IMG/VR virus record: IMGVR_UViG_3300042691_042285 | Span: 1-29,267 of that record | Reading direction: 5' to 3' (one strand) | Source of the DNA: a virus | DNA length: 29,267 bases | Shown: in pieces, positions 21,190-29,267 of the stretch | Layout: each line of letters begins with the position of its first letter | How positions within the stretch are numbered: the first letter of the stretch is position 1 | Translations under genes and position numbers: made by a program | The notes under the pieces: generated by a model | Databases searched by the model: none | Told to the model about the DNA's origin: nothing | The model's input: only the letters and a program-made list of their open reading frames with translations

Positions 21190-21387
21190 ATGGAAAAAGA
21201 AAAAATTAAATTATCAATCCCAGAGCAAGTTAGATTGGCTCTTGATGGGAGAACGCAAAGGTGGTTATCCTTTGAGATAAGGTTGCCTGAACAAGAACTA
21301 TCTCAAAAAATGAAAGGTACTGTTCAGTTTACACAAGAAGAGTTAGATAAAATAAGCAATCGCCTAAACTTTAAATTTGAAATATAA
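21190..21387 (+). CDS. Cro/C1-like HTH regulator (65 aa)
   Basis: The sequence LSIPEQVRLALDGRTQRWLS, then FEIRLPEQELSQKMKGTVQF and TQEELDKISNRLNF, is a short helix-turn-helix protein of the kind found in Bacteroidota phage control regions. These have a helix-turn-helix near residues 16-45 and a second helix that recognises the 'TxEEL' stretch. It is the first gene of the plus-strand replication operon and overlaps the next gene's start by one base (TAATG). It may repress its own promoter and the divergent gene. Confidence 0.7.
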   Translation: MEKEKIKLSIPEQVRLALDGRTQRWLSFEIRLPEQELSQKMKGTVQFTQEELDKISNRLNFKFEI

Positions 21388-21911
21388 TGGCAAAACGCCT
21401 TACCGATACGGAAAAATGGAATGACGATTGGTACATATCATTAGATAATGATTACCGAATCATTTGGCAATGGTTATTGGATAATTGTAATCATGCGGGA
21501 ATATGCAAAAGAAGCATGAAGCTACTGAATTTGATGTGCAATACAAGAATTTCAGAAGATGATTTAGTGAGAGAAATGGGTGGTAGGCTTATTGTTGTTG
21601 ACAATAACTGGTTCATTCCCAAGTTTTTAAAATTTCAATATGCTTCGTTAAATAGCAATAGGCCAGTAATTATATCGGTCGTCAAAGAGTTAGAAAAAAA
21701 TAATCTTATATCAATGATTCCTGAATCATTTGGTAATGATTATAAAATCATTAAGGATAAGGATAAGGATAAGGATAAGGATGTATTTAACTCAAAAAAT
21801 GAAAAAAATGGAAAATTTAGCGGCAATTTTAAAGCACAATCAGAAGAGTTATTTGCTCAGAGATTTGCAAGACACCGTACAAATGACAGCGGCGGAAAAA
21901 AAGATTTGTAA
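21387..21911 (+). CDS. Replisome organiser-like protein (174 aa)
   Basis: Residues 1-115 have the pattern of phage replication-organiser N-termini: MAKRLTDTEKWNDDWYISLD, then YRIIWQWLLDNCNHAGICKR. In these, a winged-helix domain binds the origin. The segment at 120-130 is a run of Lys-Asp pairs (KDKDKDKDKD) encoded by (AAGGAT)5. The rest is a low-complexity tail ending in RTNDSGGKKDL. The last 113 bases overlap the next gene in another frame, if that gene starts at 21799. From memory, phage organiser proteins of Bacteroidota often carry such Lys-Asp repeats. Origin-binding would bring in the helicase-primase encoded at 22271. Confidence 0.7.
   Translation: MAKRLTDTEKWNDDWYISLDNDYRIIWQWLLDNCNHAGICKRSMKLLNLMCNTRISEDDLVREMGGRLIVVDNNWFIPKFLKFQYASLNSNRPVIISVVKELEKNNLISMIPESFGNDYKIIKDKDKDKDKDVFNSKNEKNGKFSGNFKAQSEELFAQRFARHRTNDSGGKKDL
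21753..21782 (+). repeat. Microsatellite (AAGGAT)5 in coding sequence
   Basis: Five exact AAGGAT units lie at 21753-21782 and encode a (Lys-Asp)5 linker. Because the unit is 6 bp, copy-number change keeps the frame and only shortens or lengthens a flexible linker. It ends at the ATG (21781) of a frame belonging to the next gene. Confidence 0.9.
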
Positions 21912-22281
21912 ATCAAGGCAAGTTGGATATTCGTTTTCGCAATTGGATGATGATGATAGAAGGGTAGCTGTGGACCAAATTATGATTAGGGCTGCGGCAA
22001 TTTGTGGATGCGTGTTGCCAACTACGGAATTTTTCGCTACTTTCATAGCTGAAGAAATCTCAATATTCCTCCTTGAATACGGATATGAAGAACTTACCCT
22101 TGAAGAAATACTGCTTTCATTTCGCCTAAACGCCAAAGAAAACACAGATGTTGACTATGTTCAGTTTTTTGGGAATTGCATTAATGTTGACTATGTGGCT
22201 AAAGTTTTAGGCCGATACATCATTCAGAGAAAACTATTAGACAGAAAATTTCAAAACAAAATAGACGGTTATGAACTTTGA
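21799..22281 (+). CDS. Replication-associated helical protein (about 160 aa)
   Basis: Three ATGs compete: 21781, 21799 and 21808. I choose 21799, in A-rich sequence typical of Bacteroidota starts, but 21808 is almost as good. The body is helical: VGYSFSQLDDDDRRVAVDQI, IMIRAAAICGCVLPTTEFFA, then IFLLEYGYEELTLEEILLSF and VDYVAKVLGRYIIQRKLL. I recall this order (a segment ending 'L-A-F-R-L/M-N-A-K' followed by 'DVDYVxxVL') from replication cassettes of Bacteroidota phages next to an organiser and a helicase. It overlaps the preceding gene by about 113 nt in the +1 frame and the next gene by 11 nt. Possible helicase loader, inferred from position. Confidence 0.6.
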   Translation: MKKMENLAAILKHNQKSYLLRDLQDTVQMTAAEKKICKSRQVGYSFSQLDDDDRRVAVDQIMIRAAAICGCVLPTTEFFATFIAEEISIFLLEYGYEELTLEEILLSFRLNAKENTDVDYVQFFGNCINVDYVAKVLGRYIIQRKLLDRKFQNKIDGYEL

Positions 22282-24334
22282 AGGTTTGCACGAAATAGAG
22301 GGCTTGCAATTCATTCCGGTGAATGCGCAAAAACAACCCATTGTAAAAGACTGGCAAAACTCGGTCAAGAAATATGATTTGAGCAATTGCGTAGCCGTAG
22401 GCTTAGTTTGTGGAAAGCCGTCAGGAAACGTAGAGGTGATTGACATTGACCAAAAGTACAGCCTTGATGGTAAGCTTTTTGAAAACTACAAGAGGCTAAT
22501 TCATGAAATGGATTCCAATTTACTCCAAAAGTTGGTTGTTCAAAAGACAAAAAACGGTGGATATCACTTCATCTATCGTTGTGCCACTATTGGCGGTAAC
22601 ACAAAACTTGCAAACAGGGGTACAACTGATGCGGAAAAGGAGGAAACTTTCCAAAAAACATACGAGGCGGAGGTAAGCAAGGGAAAGGATGACGCTGAGG
22701 CTCGCAGAGTTGCCGATAAATCAAAGATAAACGACAAGGTAAGGGTTCTTATAGAGACGCGCGGTTTAGGCGGTCAAATCGTCTGTAATCCATCCGTAGG
22801 GTACGAGATGATTTATGGCGATTTGTATAGCATAACCGAAATAACTTCAGAGGAAAGAGATACTTTGTTTGGAATAGCCCGACAATTTAACGAGGTGGTA
22901 GAAGAATTTGTGTTGCCAACACGCGGTGCGGGAATAAAAAAGACAAAGGGGTTATCATCTTTTGATGATTACAATAAACGTGGCGATGTAGTTGGACTTT
23001 TGCAGAGCCATGGATGGAAAGTTGTTAAGCAACAAGGTCAAAAAACAATATTTTTAAGGCCGGGTCAATCTTCGGCTGTTTCTTCAGGCAACTATGATGC
23101 AAGCCGAAATTGGTTTAGTGTTTTTACGACAAGCAGCGAATTTGAGCCCGAAAAAGCTTATTTGCCATACGCAGTTTTTGCTGTCTTGGAGTGTAATAAG
23201 GACTTTGCAGAGGCGTCAAGAAAATTGTATGATATGGGATTTGGAGATAGGGAAGAGGTAAAAAAAGAGGCGCCAAGCACAAGAGTTATCACGTCAAGAG
23301 TTGATGTTAATGATGAGGATTTTAGTTTTTTGGCAAAGCCAGAGGATTATGACGATTATTTGGCTTCGGTAAGAAACGGCACTTTGAAGATGGGATTAAC
23401 AACCGGTAGCCCGTACTTAGACCAATATTTTCTTTTCAAGGAAGGCAATTTGGTAATGACCAATGGTATAGACAATACTGGTAAATCCGTTTTTACTTGG
23501 TATTTGTGCTTATTGGCCGCTATGTATCATGGTTGGAAGGGAATCATATTCTCAAGCGAAAATACCCTTGGAGCATTTATGAGAAAGATGATACAGTTTT
23601 ATTGGGGAAAGCCATTGGTTGGGAAGGGGGCTATGAACGAAACAGAATACGCTATTGCCAAAGAGTTTGTAGAAAAGCATTTTGCGCTTATCAAGGCTCA
23701 AGAGGATTTGTTCAATTACAAGGACATAATCAATATGGTTAAAAAAGCCCGAAAGGTCAAGAAATATAACTACGGAATGATAGACCCCTACAACTCGCTC
23801 AAAATAGACCTAAGCGGATTTAGTAAGCTCAATACGCACGAATATCATTATGAGGCGCTTAGCGAAATAAAGGCATACGGCCAACAGAATAATTTTGGGT
23901 GGTTTGTTAATCACCACGCAGTAACAGCGGCCGCAAGAACAAAAGATGGAGAGAAAAAGTATCAAGCAGCTCCAAATAAAGCAGACACAGAAGGAGGGCA
24001 AAAGGTTGCAAACAAGGCAGACGATTTTTTAACTATCCACAGAATTACCCAACATCCTACCGATTGGATGGTAACTGAACTTCACGTCAGAAAGATTAAA
24101 GATACTGAAACTGGCGGCAGGCCAACACCACTTGATTTCCCCGTAAAGTTTGAGATGTATAGAGGTGGTTGTGCATTTATAGAAAGGCTTGAAGAGGGTG
24201 GGCAACCAATTGACCCGGTACACGCTTGGCACATGAAGAGAGAAAGTAAGCAATCAGAAATCAAAATATCCGAACCAATAGCAGAAAGACCTACCACATG
24301 GAAGCCGTATAAAGACAACGACATTAACTTTTAA
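22271..24334 (+). CDS. Primase-polymerase/RecA-type helicase fusion
   Basis: This 687-aa protein combines an N-terminal archaeo-eukaryotic primase-like domain with a C-terminal DnaB/RecA-fold ATPase. In the primase part, VGLVCGKPSGNVEVIDIDQK holds the catalytic D-x-D (residues 58 and 60), GGYHFIYR carries the conserved His (99), and RVLIETRGLGGQIVCNPSVG is the third motif. Residues about 110-152 form an extra charged helical insert. A middle domain (residues 230-330) resembles a primase C-terminal linker. The ATPase shows Walker A NGIDNTGKSVF (residues 398-408) and Walker B YGMIDPYNSL (Asp 505), then WFVNHHAVTAAARTKDGEKK. It would unwind and prime at the replication fork. Overlaps the previous gene by 11 nt. 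Confidence 0.9.
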   Translation: MNFEGLHEIEGLQFIPVNAQKQPIVKDWQNSVKKYDLSNCVAVGLVCGKPSGNVEVIDIDQKYSLDGKLFENYKRLIHEMDSNLLQKLVVQKTKNGGYHFIYRCATIGGNTKLANRGTTDAEKEETFQKTYEAEVSKGKDDAEARRVADKSKINDKVRVLIETRGLGGQIVCNPSVGYEMIYGDLYSITEITSEERDTLFGIARQFNEVVEEFVLPTRGAGIKKTKGLSSFDDYNKRGDVVGLLQSHGWKVVKQQGQKTIFLRPGQSSAVSSGNYDASRNWFSVFTTSSEFEPEKAYLPYAVFAVLECNKDFAEASRKLYDMGFGDREEVKKEAPSTRVITSRVDVNDEDFSFLAKPEDYDDYLASVRNGTLKMGLTTGSPYLDQYFLFKEGNLVMTNGIDNTGKSVFTWYLCLLAAMYHGWKGIIFSSENTLGAFMRKMIQFYWGKPLVGKGAMNETEYAIAKEFVEKHFALIKAQEDLFNYKDIINMVKKARKVKKYNYGMIDPYNSLKIDLSGFSKLNTHEYHYEALSEIKAYGQQNNFGWFVNHHAVTAAARTKDGEKKYQAAPNKADTEGGQKVANKADDFLTIHRITQHPTDWMVTELHVRKIKDTETGGRPTPLDFPVKFEMYRGGCAFIERLEEGGQPIDPVHAWHMKRESKQSEIKISEPIAERPTTWKPYKDNDINF

Positions 24335-27633: not shown

Positions 27634-27777
27634 TTACAATTTTATCTTTATAAATATAATCAAAGCTATTGTCTGAATAGCAAGAGGTATTAAACTAATA
27701 GGATATGGGAATAATATAGCAACCGGCAAAACGGATAAAAAAAAGAAAACCGATTCGTATTTATATAGTGTTTTCAT
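27634..27777 (-). CDS. Tiny membrane protein (47 aa)
   Basis: The ATG at 27777 overlaps the stop of the N4/N6 methyltransferase (ATGA). The frame ends TAA at 27636-27634. The product MKTLYKYESVFFFLSVLPVA...LIIFIKIKL has two hydrophobic stretches, about residues 10-24 and 26-43, split by a Pro pair, so two spans in a hairpin are likely. No signal-cleavage site is seen. The coupled start supports expression. Confidence 0.55.
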   Translation of the reverse strand: MKTLYKYESVFFFLSVLPVAILFPYPISLIPLAIQTIALIIFIKIKL

Positions 27778-28637
27778 TGTCTTTGTTTTAATTGAAATAG
27801 TGTTTGGGGAAGTTGTGATATTCTTTTATTTGCTATTTCACAATACTCTGATGATATTTCACTTCCTATCCAATTTCTATTATTAACTATACACATTTTT
27901 GCAGTAGTACCACTTCCCATAAAACAATCGTAAACTAAATCTACTTCATTACTCCAACTTATCAAATGGTCATTTGCAAGTTTTTCGGGAAACATGGCAG
28001 GATGTTTAAAAGCAAAATTATCAGATGTTGTATTACCCTTACCCGTCGCATATTCCCAAATATTATATCTAAAACCAAATTCTTCAACTAATATTTGTTC
28101 TCTATTTCCAAGTTCACCATTTTTTTCTCTAACTGATGTTTTGCCAAACGTATAAGTTCCACCATATTTATTTTTTTTGTCTTTAATTAAATTAATTGTC
28201 TTTGGTTTCCCTTTACTTAATACAAACATAAATTCTATGGCATCTCTATATCTATTATTATGTGGCAATCCACCACTTGTTTTACTATAAATCATAGTAT
28301 CATAAACATTAAAACCAATACTTTGAAAATACAATGCTTGTTTAAAAGAAGTTAGAGTTTTATTTCCATTAATTGTTGCATCTTTTACAACCCAAACAAC
28401 AACTCCCCCATTTTTAGTTACTCTAAACAATTCTTTTGCAACATTTTCAAAATCAAATGAATACCCTTTGTAATCCCTTAAATTATCGTATGGAGGTGAT
28501 GTTATAGTTAAGTCAATAAAATTGTCTGACATCTTCCCCATAGTAATCAAGCAATCCTCATTGTAAATTTTATTTATCTCTATCATTGTATTTGTTTTAA
28601 AGTGTTCTTGTAACCATTCTACTGCTGTTTGTTTCAT
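27774..28637 (-). CDS. Beta-class N4-cytosine/N6-adenine DNA methyltransferase
   Basis: This 287-aa protein carries the catalytic motif TSPPYDN (residues 46-52) and the SAM-binding FMGSGTT (residues 239-245), in that order, which is the beta-class arrangement (N6_N4_Mtase family). 'SPPY' is typical of N4-cytosine enzymes, 'DPPY' of N6-adenine ones, so N4-cytosine is favoured. KHPAMFPEKL near residue 215 is the family's 'HPA-x-FP' stretch. The first 16 codons (MKQTAVEWLQEHFKTN) do not belong to the methyltransferase fold; an ATG at 28589 would remove them (see findings). Likely role: modifying phage DNA against restriction. No restriction gene is nearby. Confidence 0.88.
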   Translation of the reverse strand: MKQTAVEWLQEHFKTNTMIEINKIYNEDCLITMGKMSDNFIDLTITSPPYDNLRDYKGYSFDFENVAKELFRVTKNGGVVVWVVKDATINGNKTLTSFKQALYFQSIGFNVYDTMIYSKTSGGLPHNNRYRDAIEFMFVLSKGKPKTINLIKDKKNKYGGTYTFGKTSVREKNGELGNREQILVEEFGFRYNIWEYATGKGNTTSDNFAFKHPAMFPEKLANDHLISWSNEVDLVYDCFMGSGTTAKMCIVNNRNWIGSEISSEYCEIANKRISQLPQTLFQLKQRQ

Positions 28638-28660: not shown

Positions 28661-28915
28661 CTATAATTTATTTTCCCTCATTAATTTTAGCATATCGCCC
28701 TTAGATAGTTCTTTATCTGTCGCAATAGCTCGTTTTGCTTCTTCTGGTTTTGTCGGTTTTTGGTCGGTTTTTGGGCTTGATTGTGATTCAACATAGTTTC
28801 TCAACAATACATCAACAAGCTCTTGGGCAGATTCAAAATTACCCCTCTTCATTGCATTATTAAAATGCACTATATTGAATCTTATACTTTTTGGTGATGA
28901 CTTTTTTGCTTTCAT
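28661..28915 (-). CDS. Ribbon-helix-helix-like DNA-binding protein (84 aa), putative array binder
   Basis: Residues 9-45, KSIRFNIVHFNNAMKRGNFE, then SAQELVDVLLRNYV, have the pattern strand, helix, turn, helix of Arc/CopG-type ribbon-helix-helix proteins, and a similar 'SIRF-x-x-x...V-x-x-LL-x-x-Y' string occurs, from memory, in many Bacteroidota-phage small proteins. The remainder (SSPKTDQKPTKPEEAKRAI) is a Pro/Lys-rich flexible tail with a final helix (LSKGDMLKLMRENKL). It is the first gene after the promoter and lies just downstream of the 11-bp repeat array, so autoregulation is a reasonable hypothesis. The family call needs a structural or profile check. Confidence 0.55.
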   Translation of the reverse strand: MKAKKSSPKSIRFNIVHFNNAMKRGNFESAQELVDVLLRNYVESQSSPKTDQKPTKPEEAKRAIATDKELSKGDMLKLMRENKL

Positions 28916-28918
28916 TTC

Positions 28919-29036
28919 TTGTATTACTTTTGTAGCTCTTTTGTGTTTCGTTTGTAATTCATTTGTAATCTATCCGTAGTACTATTGTATTTCAGCTGTA
29001 ACTCAATAGTAACTCAATCGCAACACAAATGTAATA
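28919..29036 (-). repeat. Phased array of eleven 11-bp direct repeats
   Basis: On the plus strand GTA-type cores recur exactly every 11 bases, with the G at 28921, 28932, 28943, 28954, 28965, 28976, 28987, 28998, 29009, 29020 and 29031. A typical unit is TTTGTAATTCA. Read on the minus strand it is TGAATTACAAA. GT is kept in 10 of 11 units and surrounding bases vary. Read in three frames, the region hits stops quickly, so it is not a coding repeat. The 11-bp spacing is near one helical turn, so each unit faces the same side of the DNA. It occupies the leader between the promoter and the first leftward gene. Confidence 0.9.
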
Positions 29037-29053
29037 CTAATTTAAATTACCAA
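29026..29053 (-). promoter_or_regulatory. Promoter of the leftward early operon, overlapping the repeat array
   Basis: On the minus strand, TTG (29053-29051), 17 nt, then TACATTTG (29033-29026) matches the Bacteroidota form TTG-N(17-23)-TAnnTTTG fully. A second TTTG four bases further upstream gives a 21-nt spacing. The -7 box is inside the last repeat unit, and the predicted start near 29019 places the array in the leader of about 104 nt. Sequence match only. Confidence 0.65.
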
Positions 29054-29267
29054 CCAAAAATATTTTTTGCCAACTCCTTTCCAATAAAAAAATTACGCTG
29101 ATTTTTAGGCGATTTAAGGGCTTGTTTTTTGTCGGGTGGATAGTATGTACTGCTAATGGCAAGAAAAGGCTTCTATCCGCCTAAGAACGTGTTAACAATA
29201 CCCTAAAGATATGTTAATACATCCCGCCCGTTTTCGTACCATGGCTTGCAACATTCCGCCCCGCCCG
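29054..29267. other. Non-coding right edge with inverted repeat and GC-rich motif
   Basis: Together with the array, 28916-29267 is the only stretch over 300 bases without a gene. After the promoter I see no plausible gene: frames from ATG run to 16 or 20 codons. It holds GGTGGATAG (29135-29143) that pairs with CTATCCGCC (29173-29181), one G-U, around 29 nt. It also has TGTTAACA (29190-29197), and CCCGCCCG twice (29223-29230, 29260-29267), unusually GC-rich here. An origin, a packaging site or simply the window end are possible. Confidence 0.6.

Follow-up and report, generated by a model that had tools for sequence, protein, structure and literature searches.

An array of 11-bp units from the -7 box to the start codon of a small phage gene: a candidate multi-copy operator

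What might eleven short repeats, packed without interruption between a predicted promoter and a start codon, be doing in a phage genome, and which protein would read them? The repeats lie at the right end of a 29,267-base virus record, IMGVR_UViG_3300042691_042285, the whole of which was analysed and is called the window here. The order on the minus strand at that end is promoter, array, a gene for an 84-aa protein and DNA methyltransferase genes, one of which (Table 1) probably belongs to the same early operon as the 84-aa gene. Judged by its gene content, which is virulent-looking, the source is a podovirus-like phage of Bacteroidota, and its large terminase is 25-28% identical to those of the Flavobacterium elemo phages, Maribacter phage Panino and Podoviridae ctfjg026. 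Most of the window can be aligned collinearly with a 58.7-kb contig (L002/L123, G001), at 77-89% DNA identity in most blocks. At the left end of the window an HNH-type homing-endonuclease-like ORF (67-606) is unmatched at the collinear place of this relative, where the alignment skips about 70-604. A perfect 6-bp tandem repeat, TAAGGA in 5.2 copies at 21752-21782, codes KDKDKD in a 174-aa ORF before the primase-helicase, and this stretch is also kept in the 58.7-kb relative.

Table 1. Position and basis of the window features discussed in the text
Feature	Position	Strand	Basis and remarks
Array of 11 tandem 11-bp units (unit 11 truncated, 8 bp)	28916..29033	-	sequence and autocorrelation
-7 promoter element TACATTTG, also unit 1 of the array	29026..29033	-	sequence; identical in L002, L003 and L124; consensus TAnnTTTG
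-33 promoter element TTTG	29055..29058	-	21 bp before the -7 box; spacing 20-21 bp in relatives
84-aa protein gene, putative ribbon-helix-helix regulator	28661..28915	-	directly behind the array; alignment, AlphaFold2; weak VapB_antitoxin match
DNA N6/N4 methyltransferase gene	27774..28637	-	PF01555, 9.6e-42; phrog_67
65-aa protein	21190-21387		phrog_4583, transcriptional repressor, 7e-5
Primase-helicase	22271-24334		primase and initiator-like genes at 21387-24334, away from the array

The preliminary description of this DNA had read a GTA-type core at 11-bp steps, in 11 units with no slip, and a reading of the individual units bears this out. On the minus strand, counted from the -7 box, units 1-4 are TACATTTGTGT TGCGATTGAGT TACTATTGAGT TACAGCTGAAA, units 5-8 are TACAATAGTAC TACGGATAGAT TACAAATGAAT TACAAACGAAA, and units 9-11 are CACAAAAGAGC TACAAAAGTAA TACAAGAA, followed directly by ATG; the consensus unit is TACAAANGAAT. 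The TAC, TGC and CAC cores of this strand are GTA-type on the plus strand, the first at 28921 and the last at 29031, and the 11-bp register is exact, with zero slip from 29033 down to the base before the start codon (28915). The pooled 11-bp autocorrelation over 28919-29053 is 0.576, compared with 0.301 +/- 0.019 in dinucleotide shuffles, which places the array about 14 standard deviations above them (z 14.2). None of 5000 AT-rich shuffles gave the same signal, and the top shuffle value at any period from 5 to 20 was 0.402 (1000 shuffles). This is the strongest period-11 site in the whole window, and no second array of such kind was found in the window or in the 58.7-kb relative, a single one being seen in each. 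The units stand head-to-tail with no spacers between them, which rules out a CRISPR, and stops in all three sense frames leave no open frame through the leader, which rules out a protein repeat; on both points the preliminary description was right. Its further idea that phased A-runs could bend the DNA is weak, because the leader contains just two runs of at least four A, both of them A4.

The window promoter, TTTG-N21-TACATTTG, fits the Bacteroidota promoter consensus TTTG/TAnnTTTG (PMC7366714), and TTTG is present at N20-21 in all four of the loci that were found to encode the 84-aa protein. An overlap of the array with a promoter had been claimed before, and this part of the claim stands, the -7 box being unit 1; the TTG-N17 upstream element that went with it does not, as it is absent in L003 and TTTG at N20-21 is conserved instead. 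The promoter is a sequence prediction, and in 4/4 loci the repeated sites overlap what is thus predicted to be the 84-aa gene's own promoter. An operator that takes up the entire leader, -7 box included, as far as the ATG would be unusually placed. A sigma decoy made of tandem -7 boxes is not favoured, since the units hold TAC and G and not the TTT of TAnnTTTG. Further upstream, GGCGATTTAAGGGC occurs in the 29096-29121 region of the window and also at 3574-3587 of L124, on the opposite strand relative to the 84-aa gene, and AATCGCCTAAAAATCAGCG is identical between the window and L002; these conserved stretches may form a second conserved control site.

Related phages keep the array at the same place, from the -7 box to the ATG, in 4/4 loci, as the preliminary description had foreseen for a functional site. 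Counting the -7 box as unit 1 and including the cut last unit where one is present, the window (the reference, 100% protein identity) has 11 units in a leader of 118 bp (z 14.2), L002 has 9 units in 96 bp (z 12.6; 82% identity to the 84-aa protein), L003 has 14 in 151 bp (z 20.8; 62%) and L124 has 4 in 48 bp (z 5.1; 43%). Divided by 11, the leader lengths of the window, L002 and L003 all leave a remainder of 8; they differ by exactly 2 and 3 units, and the alignment of the window with L002 contains a single clean 22-bp (2-unit) gap inside the array, which indicates that units are gained or lost whole while the register to promoter and gene is kept. In L124 the last stretch has diverged and the mod-11 rule to the ATG is broken. 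Among the 31 pooled units that follow the promoter units, the C of TAC is unchanged in every one and the G of NNNG is kept in 28 (3 changes), compared with changes in up to 16 of the 31 at the middle positions. The genome is 63% A+T, and the permutation p of 5e-5 for this uneven mismatch serves as a guide only because units of related phages are not independent. The constancy of C and G within the units is as for protein-contact positions.

The contigs of the window (at 29267) and of L002 (at position 1) both stop in GC-rich sequence, 350-390 bp upstream of the ATG of the 84-aa gene, at either an assembly break or a natural end. L003 and L124 run on past that point into a divergent operon with a RusA-like resolvase, a small ribbon-helix-helix-like protein and other likely recombination genes.

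In principle, the array could be a neutral or mutation-driven minisatellite, in which slippage multiplies 11-bp units that nothing reads. Whole-unit indels between relatives would fit such an origin, as would the near-perfect 11-mer arrays that also occur in unrelated viral contigs and genomes. However, the units have diverged with their C and G positions held, the array and its promoter register persist down to 43% protein identity, and arrays of this kind are rare, a single one having been seen in 1.08 Mb of other viral contigs, and we regard this origin as quite improbable. About as improbable is a role of the repeats in the leader RNA, either as a long unstructured A-rich translation leader or as a repeated site for an RNA-binding protein. 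In favour of such a role, almost the entire array should be transcribed, given that it starts at the -7 box and reaches to the ATG, and Bacteroidota rarely use Shine-Dalgarno sites. An RNA site, however, leaves unexplained why the -7 box itself should serve as the first unit and keep in phase with the others; the number of units differs more than threefold between loci; and structure in the leader RNA is not significant (z -0.52), for which reason an RNA-structure reading was rejected. CsrA-like RNA sites were also rejected, as the units lack GGA.

The protein encoded directly behind the array has the predicted features of a DNA-binding regulator. An AlphaFold2 model of the monomer, built on a 4-sequence alignment (pTM 0.35), has a strand-like segment at residues 8-14 and helices at 15-24, 30-46 and 72-80, with pLDDT about 83-90 over 8-14, 15-24 and 30-46. 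In the alignment of the four proteins a variable linker separates two conserved parts, residues 1-42 and a C-terminal stretch, KELSKGDMLKLMR, and the strand KSIRFNI, with its alternating I/F/I, is identical in all four; the layout is thus a putative N-terminal DNA-binding domain, a linker and a conserved C-terminal helix (72-80). The modelled outline makes a ribbon-helix-helix fold quite probable. In this fold the strand pairs only in the dimer, and on the model of Arc and MetJ the residues turned towards the DNA would be S10, R12 and N14. The best Pfam match to the 84-aa protein is VapB_antitoxin at 0.0067, below the cut-off, and RHH_1 was not found in the window. Comparison with NCBIfam, PHROGs and PDB sequences gave nothing useful, Foldseek searches of PDB and viral models with the predicted structure gave only noise, and hhalign against the other ribbon-helix-helix-like protein of L003/L124 gave only 0.3%. 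Homologues outside the four loci were not found in the phages, plasmids and genome contigs searched. No period-11 array was seen in known phages whose terminases are related (elemo 6-3D, first 50 kb; Panino; ctfjg026), but as the phage collection yielded no homologue of the 84-aa gene either, these phages do not bear on the conservation of the array. The protein suggests that uncultured Bacteroidota podoviruses have a family of early regulators, one unnamed in the libraries searched.

With a little more than an even chance, in our estimate, the array is a multi-copy operator in the leader of the early operon and the 84-aa protein is its cooperative autorepressor, which is the simplest account to take in every observation. 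Cooperative coating by a small protein and silencing of the early operon had been proposed in the preliminary description, and it remains the best mechanism, with the 84-aa protein adjoining the array and having a ribbon-helix-helix-like predicted outline. From the array, its register with the -7 box, the whole-unit changes in copy number and the conserved protein, we infer the following steps of binding. The 84-aa protein would act as a ribbon-helix-helix dimer, one dimer reading one 11-bp unit (a C-N4-G core) through the strand residues S10, R12 and N14. The 11-bp spacing is close to one helical turn (compared with 10.5 bp, the drift is about 17 degrees per unit), so that successive units almost share a face of the helix. 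Such an arrangement favours contact between adjacent dimers, which would touch along the array and fill it. Because the -7 box is unit 1, in register, protein filling the array would cover it, and initiation by RNA polymerase would be blocked; occupation of the downstream units would extend the protein filament along the leader and form a roadblock there. The operon would fire at an early stage of infection, the 84-aa protein would build up and repression would set in steeply, and a change in unit number could tune the set point or the cooperativity with the register kept. The occurrence of a single array in the window and in the 58.7-kb relative is as expected of an autoregulatory site. The natural series of 4, 9, 11 and 14 units at one promoter offers a test of operator copy number against the steepness of autorepression.

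It is rather unlikely that the 84-aa protein coats the 4-14 phased units as a nucleoprotein filament whose C-terminal helix recruits a phage or host factor. If this were so, the recruited factor would serve segregation, DNA protection or polymerase control, unit number would be an evolvable dial, and the protein family would be one without known sequence relatives.

A different concern is that the array could be bound by another protein, either from the Bacteroidota host (a nucleoid-like or regulatory protein) or from the phage (another repressor), the 84-aa gene being only the first gene under its control. Within the window the 65-aa protein, with its match to a transcriptional repressor family (Table 1), is one candidate. 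In one Bacteroidota chromosome (G005; MEPC01, Bacteroidetes bacterium RIFCSPLOWO2_12_FULL_37_12) there are 46 matches of TTACANNNG repeated three times at 11 bp, compared with 0 for the reversed pattern and 0 for a 10-bp pitch. These arrays lie mostly in the sense direction and mostly end 1-80 bases before the start codons of unrelated genes, and a convincing 84-aa homologue was not found in that chromosome (best E 0.75). Since arrays exist there without an 84-aa gene, an array alone does not prove its partner, and the partner of the phage array is one that we infer. On the other hand, the TTACANNNG-type pattern occurs in 1 of 198 sampled Bacteroidota genomes and a period-11 array in none of 347 kb from 20 others, so that a general host system is not visible, and array and 84-aa gene occur together in 4/4 phage loci; we consider binding by another protein unlikely. 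Some of the pattern scans selected for TACANNNG, and the likeness of the units they returned to the phage unit is therefore partly circular. The many 11-bp arrays of the chromosome (GTATTACAACC) stand before unrelated genes (L213, L224, L238, L245, L256, L259, L262), and several open with GTAATACAATG units, in which the core is inverted, and then switch to GTATTAC units. Blastn of the array against phages returned chance-level or weak matches only. A 96.8-kb viral contig (L294:6330-6600) carries several short 11-bp arrays of TTACGATTGTG/TTTCATTTGTG units, as well as larger repeats, among unrelated genes.

The preliminary description had also raised a partition or origin role, which fared poorly. 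The array would then be a centromere-like site of the parC/parS type, with the 84-aa protein as an adaptor whose C-terminal helix recruits a motor, and the predicted arrangement of its parts, described above, would fit. The window also has direct repeats at a promoter, of the 10-11 bp typical of ParMRC-type systems; for ParR of R1 two 11-bp repeats are the minimum (PMC9426499), and for omega to activate its ParA the contiguous repeats must number four or more (PMC9499535). However, none of the four loci has a motor gene next to its array, the gene content is that of a virulent-looking podovirus, and a ParA-type ATPase (PF13614) is absent from the window and the 58.7-kb relative, contigs that may be incomplete, by a search whose control was detected in 14/14. 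A PF06406 (ParM) search gave 0 matches, but with its control silent too it carries no weight, and no actin-like gene was recognised among the ORFs read or the ten scanned. A partition site is, in our view, highly improbable.

Autorepression has precedents in known ribbon-helix-helix proteins whose own promoters carry tandem direct repeats to which they bind (omega, PMC9499535; ParR, PMC5016525, PMC9426499). Omega (ParB)/parS of pSM19035 likewise pairs a small DNA-binding protein with 7-10 contiguous short non-palindromic repeats over its own promoter, and its cooperative binding and repression (PMC9499535) would have their counterpart here. In contrast, its unit is 7 bp and not 11, its units are of mixed orientation and not of one, it has a ParA partner that was not found here, no sequence relation was found, and the phage array starts at the -7 box and extends downstream as far as the ATG. 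ParR of R1, pB171 and pSK41 combines a ribbon-helix-helix N-domain, a C-terminal interaction tail and repression (PMC5016525, PMC9426499), all of which the 84-aa protein may share, and the parC sites of R1 and pB171 are 10-11-bp direct repeats at a promoter (PMC5016525, PMC9426499; 11 bp in R1, PMC9426499). The differences are that a ParM-like gene was not seen here, that the R1 parC repeats flank the promoter and that an additional helical cap is present in ParR; a sequence relationship between ParR and the 84-aa protein was not found. Operators of the CopG, MobC and antitoxin type are usually present in one to a few copies and are often palindromic, unlike the 4-14 direct repeats here. Those proteins are ribbon-helix-helix autorepressors in which a small protein represses its own promoter, as the 84-aa protein would; MobC of RA3, for example, autoregulates its operon (PMC4175270).

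As for an origin, no initiator gene is found at the array, whose neighbours are the 84-aa gene and the methyltransferases, and this argues against origin iterons. Iterons of replication-initiator genes in phages and plasmids can resemble the array in being 11-bp direct repeats, with CACAAANG-type units in L182 and L183, but they lie inside initiator-like ORFs and not in a non-coding promoter leader. Direct repeats of this CACAAANG type and 11-bp period were seen inside ORFs at L182:5828-5880, L183:456-497 and L189:5373-5425 (reverse complement coordinates). Two of these ORFs look like replication initiators, and their repeats are possibly origin iterons in other phages or plasmids.
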